Assembly: GCA_037447655.1 (NCBI GenBank)
Contig: JBBHKE010002080.1
Coordinates: 1 to 64,000, forward strand
Direction: 5' to 3'
Origin: Zygnema cylindricum
Lineage: Eukaryota; Streptophyta; Zygnematophyceae; Zygnematales; Zygnemataceae
Length of the DNA stretch: 64,000 bases
Part shown: positions 24,002-62,452 of the stretch, piece by piece
How the letters are laid out: each line of letters begins with the position of its first letter
Numbering within the stretch: the first letter of the stretch is position 1
The notes under the pieces: model-generated
Database searches by the model: none
Seen by the model: only the letters and a program-made list of their open reading frames with translations
Told to the model about the DNA's origin: nothing
Made by a program: the position numbers and the translations under genes

Positions 24002-24999
24002 GTTTGTATGTCCTCCGTCGTATGTTATTATCTTGTCAGTCCCAGCAGCTTAACATCGAGGTTTTGTGCGCCGATAAAAATCTGTCGGAAGGAATTACGG
24101 ATCTACAAGATGAAAAGGAACCAAAAAAAAGGGTATTGCTATAATTACCACAAACAGAATCAATCGAACAGGTTATGACGTACAGATAATGACAAGCAGT
24201 TAAAAAATTATTTGACTTGGACGAAACGAAATGAGCGTAAAGAAGATACGCAACTGGGGTTTTTGTGGAGCATTAGGACAAGAAAACGACAAAAAAAATA
24301 TTGAAAAAATCTCGTTCGATTCTATACTCTACAAATCTTTTGGCCTCGGTGTCTTCTAAAGTTAAATAAATTGACATTCCACGTGAACTTGTGATCTAAC
24401 AGTAAATGTTGACCATACTAATTACCACGATTAATGATTTTGTTCATCACTATTCTTGTGAAGTCAATCTTACCGGAACAGCTGTTGACCAACCTATATC
24501 ATTTGGGCCGAAAAACAAACAATTTTAGGTCCATCTGCTGAATGAAACATATCTTGCAAGTTTTTTCCTTCAAGAAAAAGATAATTTATTCGATAAAATA
24601 CAGTATGGATTTGAGTATCTAAACGACATAAGATATGCATTTCCATTAACAAACTTTGATAACTTGAAAGTACTGCCTTCTTTTCTAACTGTGTTTACTG
24701 CATTTTAGTCATGTTCAAGAGCTCATGCCTCTAAATTCGATCTTCCGGTGGATCACAACCCCTAACTAAGAATGGGTTACCCATAACTAAAAATGGGTTT
24801 TAGGTTTGGTTCAAAAGAGAATTTATGCAGATCCCATTCAGACGTGGAAAAAGACAAAGCATTTTTTAAATTTTAGCTGCAAATTTTTTGCATTTCAAGA
24901 ATCGTCATTCTAAAAAAATAAAATTTGAAATTGGCATGCAAGAACTAATTTACAGTTATGAAATTAGGATATATTACAAGAAATTCATGTTTAATAGTC
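24002..24999. other. No gene recognised
   Basis: This is AT-rich DNA before the copia remnant. It may contain its more decayed upstream part, but no motif is readable on either strand. Confidence 0.4.
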
Positions 25000-25830
25000 A
25001 ACAGCTTACGGTTGCAAGTGGCCGCGTCAACTTGGACGGAAAAGTTGGCAAAGTTGGGCTTGATTTTCCCACATGGGATTCTTACAACAACGAATACTTA
25101 ACTGAAACCAGCTCAAAATATGCTTCACATGCCAAAAGGTTCATTTAACCTTCTGAGCATTCTGCATATTCAGCGCGTCAGCGGAAGTGTGTTCGCAAGA
25201 GGAGATTTGACGATTCAGATTTGGAGTGCAAGTGGAAACGTGATCGGGGAAAGAGTCGTGATTGACTCCATGCATAGTTGGCTTGTAAAGAGGCGGCTTA
25301 AAGCTAAAGCCCCATCCGTGGGCATATTGAGTCAAATTTGGAGATGAAGGGAGAAGATACCTCGGGACACGATCGGGCCAGCTTGCAGCAAATGATAAAA
25401 ATTCTTGTATTTCGGGAATGGACCTTGCATCAGGGGAGAAAATTAATTGTTGTGGAGCATGTTGTCAAGGGCGCTAGATAAGGGCACTAAGTATCGAGCT
25501 CATCACCCTTTGGAGCTGCTACATGTAGATCTTTGAGTGTCACATCAAGCTCGAGAGTTTAGGGGGAAACCATAACATTTTTGAAATCGTAGACGATTAC
25601 TCTTAGCTGCTTTGATTGGAGAAGAAGTCGGATGAATTTAAGTCTATCACCGAATGGCATGAAATGGGAGAGAGGCAATGTGAGAGGAAACTTAAATTTT
25701 TTCGGTCCGATAGCGGCGGAGAATTTGGTGTTTTAGGGGCATTGCAAGCAATCTGGAATAAGGCAGCCAACTCGGCTGAGTCCAACGTAGTAGACGAAAG
25801 GAAAAACCGACATCAACAAAAAATAGTGCG
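25000..25830 (+). pseudogene. Ty1/copia pol remnant (protease end to integrase)
   Basis: A frame at 25120 reads MLHMPKGSFNLLSI, as in the segment after the copia protease (V-LHVP-NLLSV type). Around 25500-25750, HHPLELLHVDL, IVDDYS, KKSDEF, KFFRSDSGGEFG and so on follow in broken frames, matching the integrase core in order, with the two Asp positions of the DDE triad in HVDL and RSDSGGEF. Frameshifts and stops separate the pieces. No RT or LTR clearly belongs to it. The TRIM at 26166 lies 330 bp downstream but has its own ends. Confidence 0.75.
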
Positions 25831-26165
25831 GGGCTATGATTCATAGCACCGTCATAACATTTTCTTGTGGGACCACGCGATCCTTATGACAGAACCCATT
25901 TGCAACCGAAGCCTTTGGTCCCCGACGACAACAATCCCTCAAGAGCTTTGGAGGTGACGAGTGGCGACAGTCCATTTGCAGCTTTGGGGTTGTCGCGCTA
26001 ACCTCTATGTTGAGCAAATATAGAGGAAGGGAAAATTCATTGTAACGAGCTGGCCCGATATTTTTCTAGGTTGTAGTACAAAAGAGAATTTTATCGGGTG
26101 TACGATCCCGTGAGGCATACCGTGGAGGAACCCAAGAATGTAAATTTCCGCGACGATTTGATTTG

Positions 26166-26342
26166 AATACCATACTCGAAGTCGCCCGAAGTAAATGGGT
26201 ACGGACCCGCCAAGCTCTACATTGAGCTGGTGGCAGTTAGTGCATTGACAGCTTAAGTCAAAGGTCCTAGGTTCGAGCCCTAGTCGGCTCAATTTTCCCT
26301 GAGTGGAACATGCCGAATCCTAGATTTCACGAAAATCTAACA
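26166..26342 (+). mobile_element. TRIM 5' LTR, truncated
   Basis: The shared sequence starts at AATACCATACTCGAAGTC and ends TCTAACA. The first ~47 bases, present in the 3' copy, are missing or replaced. Confidence 0.75.
26224..26290 (+). other. tRNA-like sequence in TRIM 5' LTR
   Basis: The acceptor stem GAGCTGG pairs with TCGGCTC over 7 bp, two of them G-U. The anticodon stem TTGAC/GTCAA is perfect with a 7-base loop AGCTTAA (CUU in the anticodon place). The variable loop has 5 bases. The T stem CTAGG/CCTAG has loop TTCGAGC, giving a perfect B box GGTTCGAGCCC. The D arm is shortened (GCA/TGC, loop of 5). Position 33 is G instead of U, so it is probably not a working tRNA. Confidence 0.8.
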
Positions 26343-26357
26343 TGGTATCGGAGCCAA
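26343..26357 (+). promoter_or_regulatory. TRIM primer-binding site
   Basis: TGGTATCGGAGCCAA begins right after the 5' LTR. It matches the initiator tRNA-Met 3'-end site (TGGTATCAGAGC) with one change in the first twelve bases. Confidence 0.85.
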
Positions 26358-26387
26358 CGGGATAGCGGATGGATTGACTGGCTTCCC

Positions 26388-26399
26388 CGTGAGGGGGAG
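26388..26399 (+). promoter_or_regulatory. TRIM polypurine tract
   Basis: A purine run (gtgagggggag, one T) lies immediately before the TG of the 3' LTR, the usual place for plus-strand priming. Confidence 0.7.
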
Positions 26400-26676
26400 T
26401 GTTGGATTGGCACGTGGATGCCGGTTCAATACGGGGTGGAATATGGTAATACCATACTCAAATCGCTTAGGGTAAATAGGTACGGACCCATCAAGCTTTA
26501 TATCGAGCTGGCGGCACAGTGGTTAGTGCGTTGACACCTTAAGTCAAAAATCCCAAGTTCGGGCCCTGGCCAACTCAAATTTTCCCAGAGTGGAACGTGT
26601 AAAATCCCGGATTTCACGGAAACCTATTTTCCCAGAGTGGAACGTGTAAAATCCCAGATTTCACGGAAACCTAACA
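26400..26676 (+). mobile_element. TRIM 3' LTR
   Basis: The 277-bp LTR has TG/CA termini. A segment with TTTTCCCAGAGTGGAACGTG occurs twice in tandem near its end (26578 and 26627), while the 5' LTR has it once. Confidence 0.8.
26505..26576 (+). other. tRNA-like sequence in TRIM 3' LTR
   Basis: This is a near-complete 72-nt cloverleaf. The acceptor GAGCTGG pairs with CCAACTC at 6 of 7 positions. The D stem GCAC/GTGC is perfect with the classic loop AGTGGTTA. The anticodon stem TTGAC/GTCAA is perfect with loop ACCTTAA (CUU). The variable loop has 5 bases. The T stem CCAAG/CCTGG has one mismatch and loop TTCGGGC. The A box (GGCACAGTGG) is good. Position 33 is C instead of U, and no CCA is encoded. 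An RNA polymerase III promoter may survive. Confidence 0.82.
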
Positions 26677-26748
26677 GGGACGTGATATTTTGGAGCATTC
26701 CAAGAGTGAGCCTGTGAACCATTTTAAATAGTGGGCCGGAAAATGCTA

Positions 26749-27287
26749 CACCGCGCATCGTTATTAGTGTCAAAGTTTAAATAGTATGTAAGTAAATATA
26801 CCGTCATTGACGCTAATTAAGAATTTGAAATTAAAAAAAAAAAGGTTTATTCTAATTTCAGTGTTAACGCTAATTTGGAACAGCAAAAATGGAAAAATTT
26901 TCTGTACGATTATATACATTATTATATGTATTCGTACAAAATATACAAAATCGTACACCGTAGTGAAATTTAAATATCCGTACATGTCAGACTTATTTAC
27001 ATGTCAGACCAATCCCGTTTTTTTAGCGCACGTTCCTATGCGAACGCGTCCGATTTAATTCATTTTTTGTAAAATTTTCAACTAAAAAGGTACATTTATG
27101 TACGGCCTGACATCGACCGTACACCACACTATTTACATATTAATGTACTTTCGTTCTGTACGCTAATTTGTACGGAACCTCAATTAACGTCAAGGAAAAA
27201 TTAAAATCATGTATACTATTTTTGGAAAAAAATCAAAATTTTAAAAACCCAAATTAGTGACCGTGACACTAATAACGATGCGCGGTG
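26749..27287. mobile_element. Mariner-type MITE (539 bp)
   Basis: The ends are CACCGCGCATCGTTATTAGT and ACTAATAACGATGCGCGGTG with TA on both sides. The interior contains tgtacggcctgacatcgacc, shared with the long subfamily at 15557, 30880 and 56463. Confidence 0.88.
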
Positions 27288-27289
27288 TA

Positions 27290-28751
27290 CTTGTTCCCAA
27301 CATTAAGATTTTTAGCTCGAATTGTTTTAGCTACTTGCGACTTCGGTTCCTTCGGATGGGGTATTTTGAGCTGTCGGTCAAATTGCCACTGCGAAAAAAA
27401 AATCGGCTATGCGGAATCCGTGGAAAAGCTAATTTTCTTAAAAGGTTTTTGGAAAGCAATAGAGTCCCGTTTCAATGTTCGTGATGAAAAAGGGAACGCG
27501 ATTCAAATAGAAATAAGCAATGATGATAATGTGGGAAACAAGGTAACTGGCAAAGGAAAACGTCTAAGGGAATCGAAAAAAGAAATTGGAGATTGGTGGA
27601 AATGTCTTCTAAAAAAATAATGAAATAGTAAATTTCCCTTTTTGTTTGGTACATTTTTAGAATGTACAATTGAAATATTTGAGATTTTGAGAGGGTACAA
27701 ACTATAAGTTAGACATTTTGGAATTTTTAAAAATTGAATTTGATAATTCGCAAAAACAATTTTCAGAATTTGAAATTCGTGTTTTTGCAAAATTTGAAAC
27801 ATTGAGAATCTGGGAACTGGAATTTTATTGAGAAATGCTTAGTTAGAAATTTAAGAATTTGTAGAGTTTGAAATTGGTGATTTTGCAAAATTTGAAACAT
27901 TGAGAATCTAGGAATTGGATTTTATGAATTATTACAATTAATATTTTGGGTGATTGAGATTTCGAAAATTTGGCAATTTAGCAGATTGTACATGTATGAT
28001 AATGTATGTTGGTGAATTGAGGCATCGGAAACTTTTAGAGTTTGAGAATTTGGGATTTTCTAGTCCACCGTAAAAAACAGTTGGTGTAACTTAAGAGTCA
28101 TTCAACGATCCATTAAAGATCCACACATTAAAGAAGTTTACGGCCAAAGTTGACGTAGTGGGGGAAGTGGGTTGGCTAGGCGCTTGGTGGAAAGTGGTAA
28201 TGCCTCTAAGTTGCAAATTGGATGAAGAAATATACTCAAAATAACGTCATGTGCCGAATCAATGTATATGGAATCCGCGACTATAGTACATAATCGTCCA
28301 AATTTCAACTTATGTGTTTATTTTGCTCGACATTATTGTCGATTATTTTTAAATTGGACTGAAAAATGCATTTAAAAGTCAAAAATCAATATAGACAAAC
28401 TATGGAAGTGATGTGAGGGCGTAAATAACAAAAAAAACTAACAGTCAAAAGGACATTTTGTAAGGGTATGGGGGCGTGGAACTTAAGTAAAACCCAAAAA
28501 AAAGTTCAAGAAAATATCGCGATTTCTTTCCGAAATCGGGGGGGGGGGAGGGGACGTGCCTATGGAATAAACCATACAGTTGTACGGTCCGTACAATTAT
28601 CATCTATGCACCAATGTTATTGCGACAAAAAACCGTTAATATCAGTTTTTTATCGTGATAACATGGGCGTCGATATATAGTGCCGATATATCGATCACCG
28701 GTAAGCCAAAACAAGGTACATATCGATCGGCACAACACTACAAATAAGTGT
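27290..28751. other. No gene recognised; a direct repeat pair
   Basis: A 65-base segment with gcaaaatttgaaacattgag occurs at about 27768-27832 and again at 27858-27922. A small frame (about 27390-27620, ending GDWWKCLLKK) has no known relative. At 28668-28740 there is a remnant with CGATATATCGATC and the end CACAACACTA, the trace of a hAT-2 element. Confidence 0.5.
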
Positions 28752-36500: not shown

Positions 36501-37990
36501 TAGTGCTGTATCCTTGACTCATTCGGGTTGCTATCACCTACTGTAGGCCTCACCTTATATTTTTCCACTATATCTCAAGAAAGTGTTCGAAATCTTACTG
36601 ATTTGAGAATTGCCAATAATTTCACAACTAGATCAGCTGTTCGATCCTCATCCTCACCAAATTGATTGTGCGATTTTTCCGTCGCCTCATTCGGATTGTC
36701 ACGGCCTATTATAGGCCTCCCCCTTTTTTTGTCAACTATATCCCATAACTGCTATGCTTTCTTGTAAACTTGGCCCATGGTCCATGATGAGAAATATTTA
36801 CATTATCCACAAAGCATCGAAGTTAAGATATGAAAGGGAGGCACAATTGGGAACTCACCTGACTTAACACGCAACAAAGCTTTCTGGACAAGGTATGTTT
36901 ATCTTTCATTTAAAATCTTTTGAGGAGCTTGAAATATACTAGTAAAGTGATCCGATTCTGGACAAGGAATTGAGTGCTAAGTTTCTCCTTGAGAGTTCCG
37001 TCTTCACCTAATAAACTTACTACAAACCAAATCTAAGAGTTGCGCAAAGTGGTGATTTTTTAACATCGATTCTGCACGAGCTATTATGTAGCAAAATTCT
37101 TGATGACTCACCTCAATAGTTGGCTACTCCAGTCTCCTGTGTAGGCCATATTCACATGAAATTCCAAGGTACGCATCACTTTTAAGCGTGGAATATACGT
37201 TGGATGCATTCCACTGGAACTTATGTTTAGTGCAAGACGGATTTTTGTAAAATACAAAAACTAGAATGAAATTAGACGGTAGAGTCACTAGTGCAAGCCA
37301 ATCTTATAATAATTTTTCTTAATCAAGTGAATTGAGAACAACAAGACGATTTTGTGCTGAAAAAAATTCACCATAAAAATAGTGTAAAATAGACAAATTT
37401 GACTTTACTCGTGGTGGTAACCGAATCCCAACTCCACCTAAACCCGAGAGGAAAGAAGTATCTAATTTTCTGAGTGGAGAAATTTCTAATCGTAAGGAAA
37501 ACTGATATTGTTGGATTGATAGAAACTTGTCATGAAACTCGAAATGAGTGACGAAAATAAATTTCTCATCTCATTTGTGGAATATTTTAGAAGTTTTAGA
37601 AGTCGTATAAAATAAAAAGTTTCGGAAAAAACCCTTTGTAGAGATTTTGGGTAGATTTGCAACTAGAATTCATGGCTAGTTTCTGCATCAGCTGTGAAGC
37701 TATAGCATGAGAGTGATGAGATTATATAGCCATTTGTAGAGATGCGTAAATGGATATGAAATAAATCGTAAGACATAACCAGTGAAAGGTAGTTCAAGCT
37801 TATTTTGCTGGAGAATTTGTACAAGATGTGATAAATCACGCAAAAAGGGATAATTTTTTGGAGATTGTCTTTTGATTTTGTTTGAAGGAGAAATATAGTT
37901 TAAAAGTGAGCGAGTTGAAATTCTGCATATTGGTATTACAAAAATATTGTATGTCGTGGGAGGGGTGAGAGGCGGATGACGAGGATTTTG
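33592..37990. other. 4.4 kb without a recognisable gene; diverged repeats
   Basis: No ORF has a known domain. An inverted repeat with 15-bp perfect arms (ACACATTAGTAAGTG, 35967-35981; partner 36002-36016) lies around a 20-base loop. Two diverged copies of one segment occur: catctatgctgcactagcta (from 35637) and catcgattctgcacgagcta (from 37065), each followed by a ggctactcc word. A second pair with CATTCGGRTTGYYA and TATAGGCCTC words lies at about 36440-36590 and 36640-36750. These look like old non-coding repeats. Confidence 0.5.
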
Positions 37991-38344
37991 CCCATCAACT
38001 AATGAGCGATGGAAGTTTACAAGCGATGGAGAAATAATGGGAGAATAGAGGAAGGGAATGAAGAAGGAGGTGGATGGAGAGAAGATAGGAGAGATGGAAG
38101 TTGGTGAGAAGGGGAGGGAAATACGGGAAAAGGATAGGAAATGAGGGAAAAGAGGAGAGGAGAGGGCAAAAAGAAGAAAGTAGAAGGACAGCGGAGAGAG
38201 AATGATGGAGGAGAGAAGGGGACAAGGAGGAGAAAGAGGGGGGGGGACGAAGGGAGATCAAAAGAGAGGAAGCGAGAGAGACAGAGAGAAAGACATGGGG
38301 CGAGGGGCAGAAAGATAGAGCGAAAGAGAGACAGAGTGGGGGAT

Positions 38345-38510
38345 AATGGAAGAGATGTTAGAATTCTGTGTCCATTTCCTGCTAAGGACCAGAAGTTAAA
38401 GTTAGTCAAACGTTGCGTGAGAACGAACCAACCGAAGTCCTGTTTGGTACATGTACGGTTGAGTAGACGTCAAGTTAACTTTGCGTAGACGTAAAAAATC
38501 CTTCAACAAG
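38345..38510. other. Normal-composition island inside the polypurine tract
   Basis: About 165 bases with all four nucleotides (from gttagaattctgtgtccatt to gtagacgtaaaaaatccttc). It has no ORF or RNA signature. Two GTAGACGT words lie 24 bases apart (38461-38468 and 38485-38492). Confidence 0.7.
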
Positions 38511-41500
38511 GGAGGAACTAAGAAAGAAACGAGCCATGGAGAAGGGAGAGGTAGGGGGAGCGGCAGATAGTGCGGAATTGAAAAGGAAAAGGGAAGAGAG
38601 AAGAAGAGGGAAGGGGAGAGCGGTAAGAGTGGATATGACGAAGGATAGAGAATAGGAGGATTGAAGAGAGGGAGAGAGAGAACCAGGAAGGAGGAGAGTG
38701 GGTGGAATTGAGAGAGGGAGTGAGTGCAGAGAGAAATGGAGAGAGTATAAGGGATAAAGAGAGAGAGGAAGAGAGAGGGGGAGGCTAATTCTGCCAAATA
38801 TAGATGAGAGGTGCAGAGGGCGAGAGGGGGAGAGAAAGAGAGTCGGGAACATAGAGAATAAGAGGAAGGGGATCAAAGTAGTACACGAATTGATGAGGAG
38901 AAAAGCATAGAGGGAGGGAGAGCGAGAGAGACAGAGGGAGAAAGAGAGAGAGAGAGAGAGGGGGGGAGAGAGGGAGAGAGAGAGGGAGAGGGAGATGGTG
39001 AAAGCGAGATAAGTAATGATGGAAACGCGGAAAGACTCCTGTAATCGGAAAGTATGAGATTGGAGATGGGAATAGGTAGAGGGATAAAGTGGAAGAGATT
39101 AGTGATTGGGAGAGACGGAAAATAAAGGAGAGAGAAAGGCGAGAAAGTTAGGTGGAGATAGAGCGAAGTTGAGAAGCCAGGGGAAAGAGAGGGCCGAATC
39201 GAAAGTGGAGATACAAAGAAAGGAAATCGGAAGTGTAAAAAGATGGATATAACTTAGGATAGAGAGAGGGGAGGAGAGGAGTGTTCGGGAGAGGATGAGC
39301 TGAGAGTGAAGATGGTATGACGGAAAGCGAGGAGAGTGATGTGGAGAGAATACATGGAGAGGCATAGAGAGGGAAGTAGGGGGAGATGGAGAGGTGGAGG
39401 GGCGGAGACAAGTTGAGAGAGAAGGGAGAGGGAGAGTGGAAGCTAGTACTTGTGAGAGTGAAATATTATAAGGGAGGAGGAGAGAATTGTGGGAGAAAGG
39501 GGTGAGTGAGAAATTTGTGTAGAGGGAGGGTGGCGAGAGGGAGAGTGGTAAAGCGGGAGAGAGAGCGAGACAGTGGAGAAGGGATAATTTAGACTGAAAA
39601 TGGGTCTAGTATTCCTTGTAGCTATAGAGGAGGGAGGTAAGATGTGGAAAGGCCGAGAGGGAGAGGGGATGTGTATGGCGTCGAAGAATGGAGAGAAGGA
39701 GAAGTGGGAAAAGAGATGAGAAGTAGTGGAGGGGAGGAAAGAGGAGAGGAAAAGTTGGAAGGTGAGAGAGAGAGGGAGAGAGTGGAAGGTCGAGGATAAA
39801 TAGAGGTGTGAAGGGGAAAGAGGAGATAGAAAGAGGTGGAGAGAGAGGAAAGGAGATGGAAGAGGTTGAGACGGAAGCGGAGAAACGGGGGAAGTTGAGA
39901 GGTAGAGAGGGAGCTACGAAGATAGGGAGAAGGCGATAGAGAGAGTGATAGAGTTGATGGGAGAGCATAGGTGGTAAGGTGGGGAAAGGGAAAGGATAAT
40001 TGGAGAGAGGCAGAAAAAGAAGAAGAGGGGGAAAAGTGAGGAGGTCCTCATACGGAGAGGAGAAGTGAGAGTTGGGAAGTGAGAGGGGAGAGGAAGGCGG
40101 GAGGCAGAGGGGAGAGAGAGAAAGGGAGACAACAGAAGAGGAGGGATGGAGTGGAAAGAGAGGGTGAGAGTGACAGCGGGGATAAGAAAAGATGAAGATA
40201 GGAGGAACGGTGTGAAAGGCAGGTAAAGGAAGGGAGAGGGAGGGAGAGAGGAAAAGTTCACAGGAGTGATACAGAAGATGAGGAGTACAGGGAGAGTGAG
40301 AGGGTGAGAGAGAGAAAGGACAGATGGACGGACATTGGGAGGCAGTCAGAGAGGGGAATAATTGAGCGACAAAGAGCGAAAGATAAGGGGATAGTTGGTG
40401 AGGAGCAGAGGGGTAGAGGAAAAGAGTGGGACAATAGGCAGAGTAGCAGTGTCAAAGTGGAAGACAAGGAGAGAGGCAGAGACGGAGAGTTGGCGGGGAA
40501 AGACTGAGCCGGGGAGAGGCGAAAAGAGTCGACAGGATAAAGGAGAAAAACGGAGAGGTTTGTATGGGGTGAGAGGGAGAAACGGAGACGGGAGATGCTT
40601 AAAAAGTGGAAGGAGAGAGAGTGAGGTAAAGATGACCTAGGATGAAATGGAGAGATAGACATGGGAGAAAAAAGGGGGGAGAGTCGGAGTGCAAAGAGGA
40701 AGCAAGGTATTGAGTTATTTGAATGTGGGGGGGGGTGAAAGGAGGGGAGGGAGTTAGATAGGGAGGAGACGAGGAACGGTAGAAAGTCAGTGATGAAATA
40801 GGGAGGAATGAAAATATGGAGAAGGGGGAGTATGAAGCGATAGAGAGAATGGGGAGGGGGGGAAGAGAGCGAAGTGAGGGAGAGAGGGAGAGAGTGACAT
40901 ACTGAGAGAAAGAGGTGGAATGTGTTAGGGAGAGGGCCACTGGGTGCAGAAGGGACATGGGCCTGGTTTAGAGAGCGAAAGATGCGAGGACAAGGGAGAG
41001 GGGAAAAGGTGGCGAGAAGACGGCGAAAAGAGAAATAGTTAGAGAGGGAGAAGAGGTGATTGATACTGGAAAGAGGGAAAAAGGAGAAGAGGAGAGGGAA
41101 AGAAGGAATGGAGAGGGAGAGGCGGGAGAGTGAGATATATGGAAGGAGAGTGGGAGGGGAAAAATGAAGAGGGAAAGTGACGAGGGAAGTAGAAACAGAG
41201 GGACAGAATGATGGTTGAAGTTGAAATGGGTGAAGGCATGAGATGGTTTTTGTTTTAGAGGGGATGAGCATGACTGGTAGAAAGGGAGGGATGGAGAAGG
41301 TAGAGGGAGGGAGAGAGAGAGGGAGAGGGGGCAGGAGAGGGAGAGTGGAGAAAGGAGAAAATTGTGGAGGCTGAAGGGTGGATACAGAGAAACTGGAGAA
41401 GTGAAAAAGGGGAGACCGGGAGGGTTTGGGAAATAAATAAAGGTGAGAGGTTATGGGAGGTGAATGGAGAGGATGAACCAAGAGAGAGGGGGGCTGGAAT

Positions 41501-43664
41501 AGTGGAAGAGGGACAAAAGGTAAGAATGAGGGAGGCAGAGAGGAAACGAGCCAGATTCATCGAGGAAGCGTGGAAGGACGGGAGAGGGAAAAGGAGAGAG
41601 TGAGAGAGGAATAGAATTTATGGAGAGATAGGAAAAGGATGGCGAATCGGAGTGATATTTAGGAGTGGATTGGGCCGAGGAGATGGTGGAGAAGGGGTGA
41701 TATGAAAGAGAAAGGGAAAAATCATCTTTGGGACGAGTTGAAGCGATATGTTGACTGAGAGAGAGAAAAAAAGTGTGGTAGTAATCGGAGGAAGGAGAAC
41801 GGGAGAGAGAGAAAGGGAAACAGGGGATGAGAGGGAGGGACATCGGTACAGATAAAGAAGTAGGCAAAGAAGGAGCTTTTGAAGGGGAAATTATTGGCAG
41901 TTGCGGAATGCGGGAGTGGCAAGGAAGGATAGATGGAAATTGGGGGAAGTTGGAGATGGGGGAAGGGGAGATTGGGGGATAGGGACAGGTAGTGCCCCAA
42001 AGGGATTAGCGGGAGAACAAGATAGGGGATGGGGAGAGGAACAGCGGGTTGATGAAGTGGTGTAGGAAGAGGGGAAGATGACAGTCGGGGAGGAAAAGAG
42101 GGAGAGAGGTAAAGATGTAGACAGGGAGAGATCCAGGGCGGTATTACGAGAGAAATCGGAGAGCGAGAGGAGTTGCATAGAGGGAGGGAAGAGACGAGGG
42201 GGAGTGGACAGATCGGGTGAAATTTCAGCGAGAAACGGAGAGGGAGAGAGGGAGAGGGTTAATGGGTGAGGAGAGGCAAAGAGAGGAGCAGGGAAGCGAG
42301 GAGAAAGGGAGTGGAGGCTGAAGTAGAAGGGACAGAGTGAGGGAGAAGTGAGTGAGGGCGATTGGGATAACAGAATTGAGGGAAGAAAAAAATCAAGAAT
42401 AGAGGAAGAGGAGGAGGGGATACGGGAAGATCTGTAGTGGAGAAATGGACTAGGGAAAGTAGAGAGCGAGAGTGGGTGAGAGGAGTTGACGGGAGTGGTG
42501 GTGTGAAAAGAGGCAAGTGTCGGCTATTTGGAGAAAGATAAAACGGACAAGGAGGAAGGAAGGACGGGTGTGGGAAGATAAAGGAAGAGATGGTTATAGA
42601 AGAGATAAGAACAATGGAGATGCGGACGGTCAGAGAGGAAGATAGTATGAAAGGATTGAGGAAGAGTTGAACAGAGGGAGAGTGAGTGAGATAGGCAGAT
42701 GGAGAGATAGTTAGAGGTGTGGCGCGAAAGAAACGAATAGGGAGATAAAGGCAGTATGGCGACTGAGGGTAAGATAGACGAGAAGGGAAGGGAAGTAATA
42801 GGGGGGGAGTAGGTGGTTGGTAAGAAAACAAAGAGGTAGAGTGGTAGATTTCGCAAGCGGGAGAGACTAGGATAGGAAGGGATGTGGAGAGTCGGACAAA
42901 AGGAGAAAAGGAGAAATGGAGAAAGGGGGAAAGTGAGAGAGGGAGAAGGGGGAATAGAGCGAGGAGGGAAAGACAGGGAGAATTGTAGAGTACGAAGAAT
43001 AAGAGGGTGAGTATGAGAGAGGACTAATATGTAGAGGGAGAGACGAGGGAAGGGAGAGATAGAGAGGGATAGAGAGTTACAGTAGAAAGATGTCAGGAAG
43101 GGAGAATGGTAGAGAGAGAGAGGCGAGGGCGGGAATAAGTAGTGAGGGGAGAAGAGTTATGGTCGAGATAATTTGGGGAGGGAGAAGAGGGAGGGAAGTT
43201 AAGGTGGAAAGGAGGAAAATTGGAGAGAGGATAATGAAGGGTAAGGATAATTTGCGAGGGGTAGAAGGGAAGCCAAGGAAAAATGCATAGAAGGACGGGT
43301 AGAAAATGAAAGAGTAACAGTAAAACGTGACGGATACTGAAAGATGAAGGTGAGGGGAAGAAGAATGAGAGAGGTGGAGAAGGATGGAACAAAAAGAGAG
43401 CGGGGTAGGGGGGAAATAGAGAGAGAAGAAAGCAAGAGAAAAGAGAGAGGGAAAGGCAACGAGAGAGTGAGAGACAGATAGATGGAGAGAGAGACGGAGA
43501 GAGACATGAAGAGAGGGAAAGAGAGAGAGAGAGGGAGATAGCGAGAGAAAGAGGGAAAGATTTTGCAGAGTGTACACGGAGGGGTTGACGGGGATATAGA
43601 AAGAAAGACAGATTGGAAAAAAATGGAAATGTGTAGGGTGGAAGAGAGGAGATAGCAAGAGAGA

Positions 43665-43925
43665 GAGGGGAGAGGGGAGAGGGGAGAAGGGAGAGGGGAG
43701 AGGGGAGAGAGGGGAGAGGGGAGAGGGGAGAGGGGAGAGGGGAGAGGGGAGAGGGGAGAGGGGAGAGGGGAGAGGGGAGAGGGGAGAGGGGAGAGAGGGG
43801 AGAGGGGAGAGGGGAGAGGGGAGAGGGGAGGGGAGAGGGGAGAGGGGAGAGGGGAGAGGGGAGAGGGGAGAGGGGAGAGGGGAGAGGGGAGAGGGGAGAG
43901 GGAGAGGGGAGAGAGGGGGAGAGGG
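43665..43925. repeat. (AGAGGGG)n heptamer array
   Basis: Some 35 units of AGAGGGG stand in tandem, with a few 5- to 9-base variants. Runs of four G spaced by AGA make every four units a candidate G-quadruplex on the + strand. It is the most regular part of the polypurine tract. Confidence 0.9.
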
Positions 43926-44159
43926 AGGAGGGATGGGGGGAGAGGGGAGAGTGGAGAGGGGGGAGAGGAGGAAAAGGGGTGAGAGCGGAGAGAGGGGGAA
44001 ACTCGGAGAGAGGGGGGAGAGGGGGAAGATGGGGGAGAGGGAGAAGAGGGGGAAGCGTGAGGAGGAGGGAAAGGGGAGAGGGGAGAGGGCGAGGGAACAA
44101 GGAAGAGGGAGGGGGAGAGGGAGACACTTGGGCATTTGGAGATGGATATTGCGAGGGTG

Positions 44160-45845
44160 ATAGAAAAGCTGAAAGTGGATACATTTTACATTTTACCAAT
44201 TAACAATTGTTATTCCATATCTCAAGAAACCAATTATAGTTCGTTCGTTTGTTCTAGCTAAGCTAAGGTCCATGACATTAGAAAAAGCTCTTACGGACTT
44301 CCTATATGGTCATTTAGTTGTATTCGTTTTTGAAAGTTGCGTGACTCATACGGTCTGTGGTTTTTATAAGGCTTTTAATACTTTTGAGGTTGTTCAATTT
44401 TCGTGGAATGTTGGTAAATTCATGGGTTAGTACATTTTGAGGAAGTACATGGTTTTTGGTGCCGAAAGTTCATATCATTGTTGGTACAAAATTGGTGCCG
44501 ATGATATGTGTTTTTCATGGATCTCTTCTTCAATTGCTATTTGTGTGGTTTTGGCTTTGCAATTGTTCGTTTCAGGTTATTTTAAGTTCTTTTACATGGT
44601 TTTCTTGCCATATGATTCCTCCATGTTGAACCTCCCAATGAAACCGTGGGAGCAAGATCTCGTTGTTTAATCCTTATCCTGATAAGGTTTTAATTCTTAG
44701 ATTAGGTCTATTATAAGTTTTCTCTATCGTTTGGTACCAAAAGGATAGGTACGAAATGATATTTTATACTTTCTGAATTTCTTCATTGTCATACCTTCCT
44801 GTATTGGCTTCTACAACGAAGACTTTAAGAATATTGAAGGTATTTTCTTCGTGCCTGAAAGAGAATGTGAGGATATTAAAAAGATGGATTGAAGATGCTC
44901 CTAGAATTTGACATTTTCGCATTCACATTCAAACTTATGCGAATGCCATAACTCCATTGTCCTTCAAACAAGAAAGCTAGAATTGCCTGGTACTTGTCAT
45001 TTAGTATAAACATCGAAATCCTTTTCCCACCAAAAGTAAATTAGCCTTAAGGAATGTAAGATTTTTGGTATTTACTTTACAATTGAAGCCGACGAATTAT
45101 TTCTTTAAGAAGGAAATTAGACTTGTATGAGCATGCTTAAACTTTTGTAAATCTTGGTGAGCCTAAGATGTTAATTTTAACTGTTACGAGAGGTTCCTCT
45201 ATAGTCTATAGTTTATCGGGCTGATAATGGACTTAAAACATTTGATCCAATGATAGCTTAACGGGTATTCATGAAGCACGTGAAGAAACTATAGTCTTAA
45301 TTATGTTTATCTTAGAGAAATATGAACAACCGAAATAGAAAGTCTTGTGGTCTTCAAAAATTGTGCACATAAATAACATGATGTACCTGTTGAAATCAAG
45401 AGCTTCTATAGATCATTGTAAATCTGAATAGGTACGGGACATTTGTGTGATAGTCATACAGATGAAAATGTCTCCTTTTTATGATGAACTCTTCTTGCTT
45501 GATTTCAAGAGATGTTGTAAGTGCTACCTTGTTGCCCCCTAAACATCACTACTTTTCTGGTTTGGATGTGTTGCTGAACTTCTTGGGGGGCCTGTCAACA
45601 ATAATTTGCAGAGAAAATTTAAATAGAAATTTAGTTACTTTCTTCCCATTAAACACTGAATTTTTTATTTCTTTATAAATACAAAGGGATAGAAAAATCC
45701 CAAAGATAAACATGCCCAAAAAGGTCAAAAGAAAGGAAAACTGTCTGGTAAAAAATTTCCAGTAAAACGTAAGGGAACGGAGTGAAGGAAAGCCACATTT
45801 CACCTAGAAACGGTCAATTTCTTTATTTTCTAAAGAGCCTTCCAT
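44160..45845. other. 1.7 kb without a recognisable gene
   Basis: The DNA is AT-rich. A weak trace RADNGLKTF (about 45217-45245) recalls the copia integrase RSDNG block, but nothing around it confirms this. The ORF 44437-44670 has a hydrophobic stretch and no known domain. Confidence 0.35.
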
Positions 45846-48836: not shown

Positions 48837-49903
48837 TGTAGAAATTAATGGTCTTTTTAAGTATTTTCTAGGTCTGAATAGAAATATAGAAAGAAGCTGA
48901 GGCAGTCTACCTCTAGCTTCTCTCTCCAACTCTCAAACTTGTTGCAGTTACTGAGAAATTAGAGAGGAAGCTAGAGCCATGGCTACGTAGGCTATCCAGA
49001 GGTTTTCGGGATATAAATACTAGTTTATTTATAATTAAAGGATATATGTGCTAAAATATATGTGCCCCCTCCAGAATTTGAACCTGCAACGTGTCGGCCG
49101 GAATTTAGCCAATAGCCGGTAGCTCTAGCCGTTAACTCTAGGGATAGTGTTACGTAATATAGGGTTTAATAATTGATTAAACATTTATACGTATGATAGT
49201 TCATTTTATTGAAATAGTTTTACGGGAGACATAGATCCAGTAATGTAAAAGTACGGATTACGGTACGGATAAGAAAAAAATACCGCGCATTTATTTATTT
49301 ACCGAAACGAATACCGCGCATGTATTTATTACGTCTACGATTAAAAGTGAATTTAATCGCACTGCCGAAATTAAACGCCGAGATCGCGGAAGAGAATTTC
49401 GGCAGTTTTTGATCATCGCCACATCAGATGACACGTGGCGGAATGACATTCGATTGCGGCATCTCCGAGAATTAAGGGAGCGAATCCGGATATACCACGT
49501 GTCGACATTTAGGCCATGTCGTACAATGTTCGTACAGAAAGTACACCGGCAGCTGTACTTTTGTGTACCAATGAGTAATATGATTGGCTTCGTACATCAG
49601 TAGATAGAGTCTGGGAGAGAGATAGGATTTAGAAAAAATTGGTAGATAGGACCCTCTCTCTCACAGAGAACTTCTGTACAAAAGGTCAACTTTGACCCTC
49701 CATAACTTACTGCTCAGGGGAGCAAATTCAAAGATTCTTTTTCCTATCGACTCAAGGGAGTCTTGCCTTCATAGGGGTGAAGGTGGTTAGAGTTTTTGTC
49801 TTCCAGGGTGGCAGTTTTTCTTGCTCAAACTCAAAGGGGTCAGGGTTATCCTAGAGGCTTCTTGGAAGCTGTCCACTCTGAGGACTTATGTCTCAGAGTT
49901 TCA
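48837..49903 (+). mobile_element. Copia 5' LTR
   Basis: The 1067-bp LTR begins TGTAGAAATTAATGG and ends CTCAGAGTTTCA. It contains a tRNA-like segment on its minus strand (about 49065-49148), a doubled ATACCGCGCAT-ATTTATT block (about 49280-49335), and a GTAC-rich part near 49500-49600. Confidence 0.93.
49065..49148 (-). other. tRNA-like segment inside copia LTR
   Basis: Read on the minus strand it contains TAGAGTTAACGGCTAGAGC, which resembles an A box with D loop, and GCAGGTTCAAATTCTGG, which resembles a B box with T loop, followed by AGGGGGCACA. The spacing suits a tRNA. Stems are imperfect, so it may be a tRNA pseudogene. Equivalent segments occur at 54485-54570, 30565-30640 and 62150-62230. 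Confidence 0.5.
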
Positions 49904-49919
49904 GGTTATGGGCCCACCC
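49904..49919 (+). promoter_or_regulatory. Half-tRNA primer-binding site
   Basis: GGTTATGGGCCCACCC directly follows the LTR. It is complementary to the anticodon arm of initiator tRNA-Met and identical to 7294-7309. Confidence 0.88.
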
Positions 49920-50122
49920 TCTAGGGTACTAATCTTTAATGGAACTGGCTTTATATACTGGGAAAGTATGATGATAGGAGCTCTATGCGAAAAAAGGTTT
50001 TGGGGGATAGTGAGTGGACGATTGGGGCGTCCATCAAGTCTTGGAAATCCTCCAGGGTTTGAAGGAAGCAGATTCACAAAGAAAGCAGGTCCATCTTCAA
50101 CGTAGGAGACAAAGAAGGAGAG

Positions 50123-50821
50123 GTGGTGGACAAAGGAGCGGAGAAGGAGACGACCACACCAATAACAACTAGTTCAGCATTCATGTCACCTATTCCGAGG
50201 AACGAGAAGAATGATACTCAAACCTGGGATTTCAACAATATGGCGGCAAAGCACTTCATCCTACGCCATATTACTCAAGGACTTACATGTCTTCATTTGC
50301 AGGTAGAAACGGCATCCGATCCATGGATGGCTATCATAGAGATGTACTGAATTGGTATGATTCAGCAACAACAGCTGGCTGATCAGAAAAATAAGTAATA
50401 TGAATACAAAGGGGGGAAAATGTTGGATTTTTGCAATGAGCTTGCTACACTCTTCATAGAGCTAGAGAGTGCGGGAAAAGATTTTAGTGAAAAAGAAAAG
50501 GTTAAATGTTTACTGATGAAGTTACCCGATGAGTTCGAGAACATAGTCAACCGTGTGCAAGACTTGCCGGACTCAAGGAGGATATGGAACTTAGTGGTAG
50601 GGATGATTATCGTTTGGGAGAATACGATTGAGATCCGAAAGGGAGGAAAGAGTGGCCAAGCCTAGGCAACTTCGACCGATTGGAGGAACAAGGATTCACG
50701 TAAACTGGTCAGAAACTATGGGGGAAGAGAGCAGAAAAATTAGGCCAACGAGCTCGGGCCAAGGGCTCCCAAAGGCTTATGTCATTTTTGCAAGAAACCG
50801 GGGCACTATATGGCAGAGTGC
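50123..50821 (+). pseudogene. Copia Gag region with CCHC zinc knuckle
   Basis: Gag packages the element RNA into particles. One frame reads through a core (NMAAKHFILRHITQGLTCLH, and later MLDFCNELATLFIELESAGK, LLMKLPDEFENIV) of the UBN2 type. A zinc knuckle CHFCKKPGHYMAEC (CX2CX4HX4C) follows at 50780-50821. In-frame stops lie at 50348 and 50663. A basic stretch (RGKKKACV) and an acidic stretch (EAESEDEDYE) follow before the protease. Confidence 0.9.
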
Positions 50822-51034
50822 ACTAAGCTCACCGAGCTTCGGTTAAAAAAGGGGCAGGCTAGTGGTACCTCGAGAGGAAAGAAAAAGGCTTGTGTAACAC
50901 AGGTTCATGAGGCGGAATCCGAGGACGAGGACTATGAGCTCCTTTTGGATAAGGAGTTGGAGGCGAAAAACGAGGTCGAAATTCCACGAAGGCAGAAATG
51001 TGCTTACGGTGGATTGAAAGGTGAAGCAGGCTAG

Positions 51035-52160
51035 ATTGTAGATTCAGGTGCCTCCATGCACATGTGTAAGGATAGGCACCCGTTCACTAAGATAAGAAAG
51101 ATTCCCACCGTAGAGATAGAGTACAGGGTTGGGAGGATAGTCATCAGTACTCTTGTAGGATCGGTAGATCTGAAAGTGTTTGTAGAAGGAAAGACATCCA
51201 TACTAACATTCTACGATGTATTGTTTATTCTGGAGCTGAACAAAAACCTCATCTCTACATCTGTATTAGATGATAAGGGTTTTTTTACTAACACTAGGGA
51301 AGGAGTCTTTACTGCTAGTTTTGAGGAGGATGTCAATTTCATTGGTGAGAAAGGCAGACATGGGATGTTTACGCTGATTTTGAGTAATCAAACGAAGAAA
51401 TTTATTATGCTGGTGTTCATGATATTATGATGTGGTATAAGAGGCTTGGGCATTTAAATCTAGATAAGTTAAGAGAGATGAAAAAGATGGGATTGGTGGA
51501 AGGGATTCAATTCAGTGAGAGTGATAATATAAGTGATTGTAGTGGATGTGCTCAAGGTAAAGCACACATATTACCTTTTCCTAAGACAGCCACCTATAAG
51601 GGAGAAAAAATTCTAGATCTAGTACACAAAGATATTTGGGGACCTGTTAATGTGCCCTCACTGAGGGGGAAGAGATTTATGATGACTATCACTGATGATT
51701 GGTCTCGATATTCGCGAGTGTGTTTTTTGAAAAACAAGTCCGAAGCTGAGGATTGTTTTAGACAATATAAAGCATGGAGCGAAAAACTCCATGAAACTCC
51801 AATCAAGAGAATAAGGAGTGACAATGGTGGAGAGTATACTTCTAACCACTTTGAGGATTTTCCGAGGGAAGATGGGGTCCAACACCAAAAGACACTTCCA
51901 AAAAACCCAGAACAAAATGGAGAAGCTGAAAGGTTAAATAGAACACTAAGTGATAGTGCTAGAAGTATGTTGTCAGATAAGAAGATAGGAAAAAGGTTTT
52001 GGGCAAAGCAATGAACTGTGCTAATTACCTCAAAAATAGAGTTCTTACTTCAGCTATAAAAGATCAAACACCTTATGAGAGATGGACAGGCCGGAAACCA
52101 GACATATCTCACTTAAAGGTTTTCGGCAGTAAAGTATTCAATCTAGATAGAGATTAGTCT
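51035..52160 (+). pseudogene. Copia protease and integrase region
   Basis: The aspartic protease site VDSGASMHMC is at 51038-51067, right after an in-frame stop (51032-51034). Integrase follows after a frameshift near 51425. The zinc-binding part has WYKRLGHLN (H) and DCSGCAQGKA (two C). The DDE core is visible as DLVHKDIWGP, KRIRSDNGGEYT and EQNGEAERLNR, so all three acidic residues are present. The frame breaks again near 52010, and a further stop lies at 52156-52158. The enzyme would insert the element DNA into the genome. Confidence 0.92.
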
Positions 52161-52603
52161 AATAAGAAGCTAGATCCTAAAGGAAAACCGGGATACTTAT
52201 TAGGATATAATGAGGATGTTAAAGGATATAGAGTTTATGATCTAAAAAGGGAAGATATAATCTTAATAAAGCATCTAGTAGTTAGGGATGAAAAGAAAGT
52301 ATGTGGATCCCTTCAAATATACAAAGTCAGTAAAAATCAGATTTGAATCAGAAAAATTCCGATAACTTTGAGCTTCCTAACTATCGAAGTTTTAGAGAAG
52401 ATTATTTTCTTGCAGATATAAATCAGACCGAAAAGGGCTCGGATGTGGAAACTCTAGTGACAACTTTACCCGAAGCGGAAGACGTGGTGGAAATTGATTC
52501 GGAATCAAGGGATAGGGGAGAAGCCGAGATTGTTCGAAAGAATCCACGAGAATCATCTATTCCAGCCTAAGATTTTGAGGGGGGGAGGAGAAGTAGCAAA
52601 AGA

Positions 52604-54241
52604 TTGCAAAAAAAACAGGTTAATAACAAAGATACAAAACTATCTCATCAAGATGAACCTCAGACTTATGGAGAGGCGATGACGTGTCTAGAAATAAATC
52701 GGTGGAAGACAGCCATCAATGAGGAGATGGCCTCAATTATGGCAGCCGATACTTGGGAGCTGGTGGATTGTCCACCTAACCGAAAACTAATCGGTTGTAA
52801 TTGGGTTTTAAAATTAAAACTAAACCCAGATAACACAATCGAGAGCTATAAGGCCAGATTAGTGCCAAAGGGATTTACACAAAAAGAGGGAATTGACTAC
52901 GAGGAAACCTTTGCCCCGGTCGTCAAATTTCCCTCTGTCCAGATACTTCTCAGTCTGGCAGCAGCGGAAGACATGGAAGTGCACGAGATGGACATCAAGA
53001 CAACCTTTTTGCATGGAGAATTGGAAGAGGAGATCTTCATGCGACAACCCTAAGGGTTTGTGGAGGAAGGAGAGGAGAGTAAGGTATGTCGGCTGATTAA
53101 ATCTTTTTATGGTTTGAAACAGGCGCCTCGACAGTGGAATAAGAAGCTTGATGAGTTTCTTACCGGTCTAGGATATATCCGGATGAGCTCAGATCACTCA
53201 ATCTATGTTTTCGAAGATGAGGAAGGTTTTATATTTATTGCAATTTATGTTGATGATTTGCTTGTTTTAAGTAAATCAATGGAAAAAATTAATAAAGTGA
53301 AAAACCGATCTTTAGGGGAGATTTGAAATGAAGGATATGGGGGAAACAAAATATATTTTGGGAATTCAAGTAGAAAGAGACCGAAAAAGAAAGATTATAA
53401 GATTGACTCAAAAGGAAGCAATAGGGAACATGCTTGAAAAATTTCAAATGGATAAAGCTAATAGTTGTACAACTCTAATGGAGTTGAAGAAGGGAAGTAA
53501 CGGGAGTGAGGAAGAAGGAGTCATAGTCTTAGACGAGGAATTATCTCTTGAAGAACAGTAGTTCATGCAGACTATTCCTTACAGGCAAGTAGTGGGAAGT
53601 CTAATCTATTTTATGAATTGTACCCGACCGGATTTAGCTGCAGCTGTAGGAGTGCTGAGTAGAAGTCTAAATGCTCCCACTAAGAGGGATTGGGAGGCAG
53701 CTAAGAGAGTCCTTAGACATTTGATAAGAACTAGGGATCTATGGTTGCATTTGGTTGGGGAGAATACTGAAATCACTACTTGGAGTGATGCCAGTTATGG
53801 TGATGCTCCGATGAGGAGATGCACTTCTGGATATGTATTATATGTGGGTTGTGGGGCTTGTTGTTGGAGTAACAAACAGCAAAAAAGTTATTGCTAAGTC
53901 CACCATGGAGGCTGAGTATATGGCCTCTAGCTTTAGTGTAAAAGAATTGATGTGGGTCAAGTCTTTGCTTGGTGAGCTTGGTCACCTTAAGAGTGGTGTG
54001 CAAAAAATATTTTGTGATAATCAGGCAGCAATCGCTATTTCTGCCAATCGTAAACATCATTTTAAAGCGAAACACATTGACATTAGACTCAGCTTTGTTA
54101 GAGAGAAAGTAGAAAACAAAATAATCAGTTTGGAGTACCGACTAGATAGTGAGATGGTAGCGGATATGATGGCCAAACCTGTGACTTCCCCTAAGCTAAT
54201 TTTCTGCAGGGAGAAGTGTGGTCTAAAATTAAAGATTGACT
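52604..54241 (+). pseudogene. Copia reverse transcriptase and RNase H region
   Basis: RT starts as WKTAINEEMASIMAADTWEL and shows GCNWVLKLK, YKARLVPKGFTQ, FAPVVKFPS, HEMDIKTTFLHGELEEEI, YGLKQAPRQW and the catalytic YVDDLLVL. Stops lie at 53051, 53324 and 53559, and frameshifts near 53310 and 53880. RNase H has TWSDASYGD, STMEAEYMA and CDNQAAIAI with its acidic residues, then the usual HIDIRLSFVRE tail, stop at 54241-54243. The segment ends 13 bases before the 3' LTR. Confidence 0.94.
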
Positions 54242-54243
54242 AG

Positions 54244-54256
54244 AAAATAAGGGGAG
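54244..54256 (+). promoter_or_regulatory. Copia polypurine tract
   Basis: AAAATAAGGGGAG directly precedes the TG of the 3' LTR. Confidence 0.85.
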
Positions 54257-55324
54257 TGTAGAAATTAATGGTCTTTTTAAGTATTTTCTAGGTCTGAATA
54301 GAAATATAGAAAGAAGCCGAGGCAGTCTACCTCTAACTTCTCTCTCCAACTCTCAAACTTGTCGCAGTCACTGCGAAATTGGAGAGGAAGCTAGAGCCAT
54401 GGCTACCTAGGCTATCCAGAGATTTTCGGGATATAAATATTAGTTTATTTATAATTAAAGGATATGTGTACTAAAATATATGTGCCCCCTCCAGGATTTC
54501 AACATCCAACCTGCCGGCCGGAGTTTAGCTGATAGCCGGTAGCTCTAACCGTTAACTCTAGAGATAGTGTTACATATTATAGGGTTTAATAACTAATTAA
54601 ACATTTATACGTATGATAGTTCATTTTACTGAAATAGTTTTACGGGAGACATAGATCCAGTAATGTAAAAGTACGGATTACGGTACAAATAAGAAACGAA
54701 TACCGCGCATTTATTTATTTACCAAAACGAATACCGCGCATGTATTTATTACGGCTACGATAAAATGTGAATTTAATCGGACGGCCGAAATTAAACGCCG
54801 AGATCGCGGAAGAGAATTTCGACGGTTTTTTATCATCGCCACATCAGATGACACTTGGCGGAATGACATTGGAATCGCGGCATCTCCGAGAATTAAGGGA
54901 GCGAATCCGGATATACCACGTGTTGACATTTAGGCCATGTCGTACAATGTTCGTACAGAAAGTACACCGGCAGCTGTACTTTTGTGTACGGAGGAGTAAT
55001 CTGATTGGCTCCGTACATCAGTAGATACAGTCTGTGAGAGAGATAGGACTTAGAAAAATTAAGAGATAGGACCCTCTCTCCCACAGAGCTTCAATACAGA
55101 AGGTCAAATTTGACACTCCATAACTTACTGCTTAGGGGAGCAAATTCAGAGATCCTTTTTGCTATCGACTCAAGGGAGTCTTGCCTTCACAGGGTGAAGT
55201 TGGTTAGAGTTTTTGTCTTCTAGGGTGGCAGTTGTTCTTGTTGAAACTCAAAGGGGTCGGGGTTATCCTAGAGGCTTCTTGGAAGCTGTCCACTCTGAGG
55301 ACTTATGGAGGTCTCAGAGTTTCA
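54257..55324 (+). mobile_element. Copia 3' LTR
   Basis: The 1068-bp LTR has the same ends as 48837-49903. Near its end it reads TTATGGAGGTCTCAGAG, where the 5' LTR has TTATGTCTCAGAG, a 5-base length difference partly balanced elsewhere. Confidence 0.93.
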
Positions 55325-60989: not shown

Positions 60990-61385
60990 CACTGTAGCAA
61001 TTGGGGTTAATAATACTATTTCAGTCACGACTTTTTTTTGGCCGAAAATCATAAAATTGTACTAGCAACACTATTCAAAGAGTTGAACTACAATCTGCCA
61101 CGTCTCCTTACACTAGAGCAGTATTATATCTTTTAATTTTGTATTTATACTAATAAATCCTTCACGCTAAAGATGAGCAATGTATTAATGTAAGGCGTAC
61201 GATTGTCGCGTAAATTTTGTGTGCCCAAAACTTCTGAGCAACACAAGAGGTACACTAACCAAAAGCCGGCAGAAGCTGACAATCCTAGAATGTTCATACA
61301 AAGCGAAAAATTCCTGCGATGCCCTACTACAAACCTCAAGGAAGAGCGATAAAAATAAAAACGTAAGGCAAATGTGAACTGGTTG

Positions 61386-62452
61386 TGAAACTATGAGACC
61401 TCCATAAGTCCTCAGAATGGACAGCTTCCAAAAAGCCTCTAAGATAACCCTGAACCCTTTCTGTTTCAGCAAGAACAACTGCCATCTTGGCAGACAAAAC
61501 CTCTGACCACCTTCACCCCTGTGAAGGCAAGACTCCCTTGAGTGGATAGCAAAAAGAATCTCTGAATTTTCTCCCCTGAGTAGTAAGTTATGGAGGGTCA
61601 AAGTTGACCTTTTTGTAGTGAAGCTCTCTGGGAGAGAGGGTCCTATCTACTAATTTTTCTAAGTCCTATTTCTCTCACAGACTCTATTTACTGATGTACG
61701 GAGCTAATCATATTACACTTCCGTACACAAAAGTACAGCTGCCGGTGTACTTTTTGTACGGACACTGTACGACATGCCCTAAATGTCGACACGTGGTATA
61801 TCCGGATTTGCTCCCTTAATCCTCGGAGATGCCGCGATCTAATGTTATTCTGCCACGTGTCATACAATGTGGCGATGACCAAAAACCGCCGAAATCCTCT
61901 TACGCGATCTCGACATTAATTACGGCCGTCTGATTAAATGCACATTTAATCGTAGCTGTAATAAATACCTGCGCGGTATTCGTTTCCCTATTGAAACAAA
62001 TGCGCGGTACATGTGTCTTGTCCGTTCCTTAATTCCTACTTTTACATTCCTGGATCTATGTATCCCGTAAACAGTTTCACTTAAATGAATTATCCTACGT
62101 TGTAATGTTTAATTAAATATCAAACCATATAGTATGTATCATTAGGTGTAGACTTAACTGATAAGGCTACCGGCTACCAGCTGCTCACCGTCTGGTAGGT
62201 ACCAAGATCAAATCTTGGATGCAACATATATCCTTTTAGTAAATAAACCCCTAACGGTAAATAAACTAATATATATCTCGTAAACCTCTGGAGAGCCTAG
62301 GTAGCCATTGCTCTAGCTTCCTCTCCAATTTCTCAGTGACTGCGACAAGTTTGAGAGTGGGAGAGAGAAGTTAGAGATAGACTGCCTCGGTATCTTTCTA
62401 TATTTCTATTTAGACATAGAAAATACTTAAAAACGGACCATTAATTTCTACA
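61386..62452 (-). mobile_element. Copia 3' LTR, minus strand
   Basis: Read on the minus strand it starts TGTAGAAATTAATGG and ends GGTCTCATAGTTTCA, 1067 bp, the same length as the LTR at 48837. The tRNA-like segment lies at about 62150-62230 and reads on the + strand. Confidence 0.92.

Follow-up and report, generated by a model that had tools for sequence, protein, structure and literature searches.

Positions 26166–26676 of the window, the whole 64,000-nucleotide stretch analysed here (contig JBBHKE010002080.1 of Zygnema cylindricum, assembly GCA_037447655.1, positions 1 to 64,000 of the forward strand), contain one old, 5′-truncated and decayed copy of a terminal-repeat retrotransposon in miniature (TRIM) with a tRNA-like stretch in each of its long terminal repeats (LTRs). 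The copy is composed of the following features, all on the plus strand:

26166–26342, plus: 5′ LTR, lacking approximately its first 48 bp (it aligns from position 49 of the 3′ LTR on)
26224–26290, plus: 67-nt tRNA-like stretch in the 5′ LTR, its D arm impaired by the loss of 5 nt (Rfam model RF00005, 34.1 bits; alignment)
26293–26296, plus: TTTT after the tRNA-like stretch of the 5′ LTR, a possible terminator for RNA polymerase III (Pol III) (sequence)
26343–26355, plus: primer-binding site (PBS) TGGTATCGGAGCC, adjoining the end of the 5′ LTR (sequence, family internal parts)
26343–26399, plus: non-coding internal region, 57 bp (the same length as in 44 of 47 family internal parts)
26391–26399, plus: polypurine tract (PPT) GAGGGGGAG, closing the internal region (sequence, family internal parts)
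26400–26676, plus: 277-bp 3′ LTR, TGTTGG...CTAACA, with a tandem duplication of 47 bp inside it (sequence; LTRs of young copies are mostly 229 bp)
26505–26576, plus: tRNA-like stretch of the 3′ LTR, 72 nt, four arms, 19 of 21 pairs (ARAGORN at 90–95%)
26580–26583, plus: TTTT after the tRNA-like stretch of the 3′ LTR (sequence)
26579–26672, plus: tandem duplication of 47 bp within the 3′ LTR, the units being 98% alike (two units; sequence)

We take the PBS to be of the initiator-Met tRNA type. Near the start of the 3′ LTR, the sequence CACGTG (26411–26416), a motif known as the G-box, was also found in the same place in L038 and L039, being kept in one copy each of subfamilies A and B (described below); it is a possible RNA polymerase II (Pol II) or regulatory site.

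The element was searched for in its own genome (assembly of 353 Mb in 2689 contigs; query 26150–26650; 40 of 792 candidates scored, these being the best matches to the query), which gave 46 matches in 40 loci. Every locus had two or more LTRs, mostly of 229 bp, with TG...CA ends and a typical spacing of 286 bp, and tandem LTRs occurred at four loci: three at L050 and at L059, four (two partial) at L066, and five at L070. An exact target-site duplication (TSD) of 5 bp was found at 27 of the 37 testable loci, that is, all except the window copy, L035, and L066. The window locus (L034) and L035 aside, no two of the 40 loci had both flanks in common; thus, the copies are separate insertions. The first and last LTRs differed by no substitution in 11 of the 40 loci (L066 was not comparable), which indicates that the family moved recently. 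Across the 47 family internal parts the PBS adjoined the 5′ LTR and the PPT adjoined the 3′ LTR, and in 40 of them the PBS was exact (TGGTATCGGAGCC or TGGTATCAGAGCC). The longest ATG frames in the two elements checked were of 38 and 76 amino acids, so that no coding capacity was evident.

An exact 30-bp junction spanning the T arm, the acceptor stem, and TTTT occurred at 279 places genome-wide, with none for the reversed control. Among the 100 places listed, 44 had a neighbour 283–290 bp away, four had one at 243 bp, and 52 had neither, as is expected if many of the latter are solo LTRs or have a diverged partner. At G000:C144:51021-51779, four junctions of the family follow one another at intervals of exactly 243 bp, as against 286 bp, probably representing a tandem array of a shortened unit. 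On the minus strand of L070 (431–922), a 164-amino-acid open frame ran through the LTR and internal part and was kept in arrays; a protein search with this reverse-strand frame revealed no relative among eight candidates. Exact DNA patterns had no matches in viral contigs or in the genome contig collection, save for one 15-base pattern that matched 33 viral contigs.

The tRNA-like stretch was found in the LTRs at 40 of 40 loci. These loci provided 87 LTR pieces, one of which was shorter than 150 bp and was dropped; the remaining 86 contained 32 distinct stretches. With default settings ARAGORN detected a tRNA in 82 of the 86 LTRs and in none of 860 shuffled sequences, the four negative LTRs being those of the window locus and L035. 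The same two loci were the ones without a match to the Rfam tRNA model, which reached its gathering score in 73 of the 86 LTRs and at 38 of the 40 loci, with 42–57 bits. The box A pattern was intact in 81 LTRs and that of box B in 80, and a TTTT followed the stretch within at most 9 nt in 85. The identities assigned by ARAGORN were tRNA-Gln(CTG) in 63, tRNA-Glu(CTC) in 18, and tRNA-Ser(GCT) in one of the 82 LTRs. Position 33 was G in 83 LTRs, C in two, and A in one; decoding is therefore unlikely, since U33 was missing from all 86. For comparison, 17 distinct tRNA genes were read from 30 loci of the same genome, a set drawn from some of the best-scoring tRNA loci and including no Glu gene; among these, subfamily A came closest to Trp (65%) and subfamily B to Cys (66%).

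The subfamilies differ in their anticodon stems, which are CTGAC/GTCAG in A, TTCGC/GTGAA in B, and TTGAC/GTCAA in the type of the window. Among the 32 distinct stretches, 645 of 665 pair cells were standard and four pairs changed on both sides; three of these lie in the anticodon stem, and the fourth, in the T stem, is due to the window copy. Between A and B, five of the ten anticodon-stem sites differ with all five pairs kept, and five random substitutions in this stem would leave every pair intact with a probability of 0.009–0.045. In a chosen set of 16 of the 32 stretches, 98.2% of the cells were paired and 14 were two-sided, values that were each reached by none of 500 shuffles; the number of two-sided pairs (four) was reached by 51 of 500 and that of pair types by 33 of 500. 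The two-sided changes in the anticodon stem are thus suggestive, though the independent events behind them are few.

The sequence-only reading that drew attention to the window copy described a full tRNA cloverleaf in both LTRs, and tRNA-like stretches do lie at 26224–26290 and 26505–26576; the first, however, is not full, as alignment of the two LTRs placed the missing 5 nt in the D arm and box A region. Its finer description was accurate for both stretches as regards the TTGAC/GTCAA anticodon stem, the 5-nt variable loops, and the T loops TTCGAGC and TTCGGGC, and for the second as regards the complete D arm. In the 3′ LTR stretch, 19 of the 21 pairs are standard; the exceptions are C-A in the acceptor stem and A-C in the T stem. 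With a 101-base input, the Rfam tRNA model scored 34.1 bits on 26224–26291, above the gathering score of 29, and did not report the 3′ LTR stretch; neither stretch was found with the whole window or 751 bases as input. ARAGORN found the 3′ LTR stretch at the 95% threshold (none in 1000 shuffles), and the 5′ LTR stretch escaped it at every threshold tried, including strongly lowered ones.

The two LTRs of the window copy were 81% identical over 176 columns, with a Kimura two-parameter distance of 0.23 and 30 transitions against three transversions; such a strong excess of transitions is typical of methylated, silent DNA. The differences were evenly spread, with 45 of 57 columns alike upstream (79%), 55 of 67 in the tRNA-like stretch (82%), and 39 of 48 downstream (81%). 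The proposal that stems were kept or compensated between these two LTRs did not hold beyond chance. The pair had 39 of 41 pair cells standard and one two-sided change, which shuffles equalled in 242 of 500 cases, and a neutral simulation gave P = 0.23 both for two or fewer broken cells and for at least one two-sided change. A cruder permutation takes a single decayed copy as its starting point and allows changes to restore pairing; its P values were 0.004 and 0.049 for the pairs kept, and 0.27 and 0.25 for the two-sided changes. The differences thus look like neutral decay and not like compensation. The LTRs of one insertion start out identical, and their differences in the window are therefore uninformative on selection across the family.

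Locus L035 (in G000:C2154) and the window locus (window 24650–28150) are related by segmental duplication. They are 86% identical over 2 kb and have in common the 5′ LTR truncation and the 5-nt D-arm deletion, which indicates that the window copy is old. The 47-bp duplication and the downstream miniature inverted-repeat transposable element (MITE, see below) were not seen in L035.

By its published definition, the family is a member of Helenus, a group of TRIMs with tRNA-derived LTR sequence known from fungi, animals, and one plant, Selaginella moellendorffii (Kojima 2024, PMC10886601). At least two LTRs, a non-coding body, tRNA-derived LTR sequence with boxes A and B, a PBS and a PPT, and a 5-bp TSD were all found. 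The element is therefore a new family and not a new kind: the expectation of a tRNA-bearing counterpart of Cassandra proved right, in that TRIM LTRs carry a tRNA-like gene with Pol III boxes, whereas the belief that no example had been described did not, Helenus being already on record (PMC10886601). That paper groups Helenus with Cassandra and Ajax as TRIMp3, gives 5-bp TSDs for plant and fungal Helenus, and notes that anticodon and isotype of the tRNA body conflict in many families; tandem arrays are known from one fish family, and Pol III transcription of Helenus was not validated there (PMC10886601). As in the Zygnema family, the PBS of some fungal Helenus families corresponds to the 3′ end of initiator-Met tRNA (PMC10886601). 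Helenus-1_SMo of Selaginella differs in its proportions, with an LTR of 120 bp and an internal part of 85 bp (PMC10886601) as against 229 and 57 bp. The TTTT behind the tRNA-like stretch and the two-sided changes in the anticodon stem were seen in the Zygnema family; the main text of PMC10886601 nowhere contains the string TTTT, and its sole mention of a terminator concerns Cassandra. A literature search of open-licence papers revealed no second paper on Helenus.

Cassandra resembles the present family in that its LTR contains a small-RNA gene together with a Pol III promoter and terminator, in being non-coding, and in forming tandem arrays of LTR and internal part (PMC7215508). Its transcript is said to begin in the 5S of one LTR and to end in that of the other (PMC10886601), and the Zygnema transcript would take the same course. 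Cassandra, however, has 5S rRNA and the Zygnema family a tRNA: in each of the two family scans, RF00005 alone reached its gathering score. Membership in Cassandra was ruled out, no 5S match at the gathering score being found in the 40 loci. SMART and other plant TRIMs share the size class, two LTRs, PBS, and PPT (PMC3281118, PMC4717578), and tandemly arrayed forms are described as common in plant TRIMs (main text of PMC4717578); the word tRNA is absent from the main text of both papers, which gives no tRNA sequence for the LTRs (PMC3281118, PMC4717578).

Our preferred reading, to which we assign a probability of about 0.8, is that of a multi-copy Helenus-type TRIM (approximately 515 bp, non-coding) whose tRNA-like LTR stretch likely acts as an internal Pol III promoter and whose predicted partner is a Copia-type element. 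The stretch is probably a borrowed start signal for transcription. Pol III would start where the 5′ LTR has its tRNA-like stretch, would sometimes pass the first TTTT, and would end at the TTTT of the 3′ LTR. Since TTTT follows the stretch in nearly every LTR, the stretch could be the R region of the Pol III transcript, as in Cassandra; the tRNA-like RNA at both transcript ends would then form the terminal repeat (R) for strand transfer. Partner proteins would prime from initiator-Met tRNA, reverse-transcribe the RNA, and integrate the product; a Copia-type partner is predicted because the 5-bp TSD and the initiator-Met PBS fit Copia. Where Pol III stopped at the first TTTT, a free tRNA-like RNA of approximately 75–80 nt could be released as a counterpart of the 5S RNA of Cassandra.

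Several observations weigh against this reading. Pol III would be expected to terminate early at the TTTT behind the 5′ stretch, which makes a full-length Pol III transcript dependent on read-through. Subfamilies A and B are alike at 64 of 71 positions of the tRNA-like stretch, as compared with 90 of 103 upstream and 44 of 52 downstream in the LTR and with 55 of 57 in the internal part. The stretch is thus only slightly better conserved than its LTR flanks and less well than the internal part, and promoter constraint is not strongly visible. The minimum-energy fold was the cloverleaf for subfamily B and not for A, and folding energies did not beat those of shuffles (z from −0.2 to −0.7). In the window copy, box A is broken in the 5′ LTR and neither stretch was found by ARAGORN with default settings. 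Finally, an exact TSD was absent or imperfect at 10 of the 37 testable loci, and the 40 loci are not a random sample of the family and are therefore biased to intact copies.

The most serious competitor, rather improbable in our view, is transcription by Pol II from the upstream part of the LTR, with the tRNA-like stretch a passenger from an ancient insertion of a tRNA or a short interspersed nuclear element (SINE), inherited by location. It draws on the barely raised conservation of the stretch over its flanks between subfamilies, on the unremarkable folding energy, and on the absence of U33 from every LTR. A passenger would hardly be expected, however, to remain recognizable to ARAGORN in 82 of 86 LTRs, to keep boxes A and B in most of them, and to retain five anticodon-stem pairs in spite of differences at half of the sites (chance 0.009–0.045). 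The same stem suggests a more far-reaching reading, which we regard as unlikely, if slightly less so than the passenger: the tRNA-like RNA may be a working part of the element, serving as R in a genomic RNA made by Pol III, with its cloverleaf under selection, and being freed at the first TTTT as a non-decoding tRNA mimic. Selection for the folded cloverleaf is proposed because of the two-sided changes in the anticodon stem, which no promoter needs. If true, this would make the element a tRNA-mimic retroelement with a pseudo-tRNA as its own terminal repeat.

That the stretch makes a functional tRNA, so that the element spreads tRNA genes, is very improbable. The Gln(CTG) and Glu(CTC) calls of ARAGORN and Rfam scores of up to 57 bits speak for it, whereas position 33 is never U and neither the A nor the B stretch exceeds 66% likeness to any of the sampled tRNA genes, the best of which are Trp and Cys and not Gln, with Glu unsampled. 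A tRNA-Lys identity, implied by the comparison that the sequence-only reading proposed, was rejected: the anticodon is read as CTG in 63 and CTC in 18 of 82 LTRs, U33 is absent, and the closest sampled genes are Trp and Cys. The private insertion of a tRNA pseudogene or tRNA-derived SINE in a single TRIM copy, which that reading had itself considered, would suit the weakness of the window copy taken alone, missed as it was by the whole-window Rfam scan; we give it next to no weight. The stretch is shared by the LTRs of all 40 loci, its junction occurs in 279 exact copies, and ARAGORN detects a tRNA in 82 of 86 LTRs, so that the refuting conditions named by that reading do not refute the feature. 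A chance pseudogene at one locus is ruled out because the whole family carries the stretch. A tRNA-derived SINE in place of a TRIM was also rejected. SINEs of this kind likewise have a tRNA-related Pol III promoter; they are mobilised in the manner of long interspersed nuclear elements (LINEs) and have no LTRs or PBS. The LTR ends, PBS, PPT, and fixed 5-bp TSDs found here point instead to LTR-type and not LINE-driven retrotransposition.

Other mobile elements were present in the window. Just 3′ of the TRIM, a MITE (26747–27289) was found whose terminal inverted repeats are perfect (arms of 26 nt, TA included) and which has a TA target duplication; the duplicate locus L035 has an empty site with a single TA. 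The segment 3759–15194 is likely a young LTR retrotransposon of 11.4 kb with 2.6-kb direct repeats 99.0% identical and TGGTATCAGAGCA at 6359, directly after the first repeat; three long internal frames of it were checked and had no Pfam match. A decayed Copia-like element (48837–55324) has direct repeats of approximately 1.07 kb, 92% identical, around pieces of integrase and reverse transcriptase. An inverted piece related to this element lies at 61385–63403. A protein search with a Copia integrase piece of the window gave 119 relatives, the ten best being 41–47% identical, and did not place the host. A region of approximately 6 kb (37901–44200) is 82% purine on the plus strand, with GC skew of up to 0.79 and a GAGAGGG array at its end. 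With regard to host genes, a protein search with a host open frame revealed no relative among 1788 candidates, and L099 has a frame for ribosomal protein L4, whose six top-scoring PDB chains reached 468–514 bits, the next 439. The six are plant proteins and the next ones fungal, from which the host is likely a plant.

For genome annotation, the family is a warning: default ARAGORN reports tRNA-Gln(CTG) or tRNA-Glu(CTC) in 81 of the 86 LTRs, and these are likely false genes. The near-identical copies are numerous enough to test experimentally whether Pol III drives an LTR retrotransposon. The Zygnema family indicates that tRNA-bearing TRIMs, known from a single plant species in PMC10886601, can be abundant and recently active.
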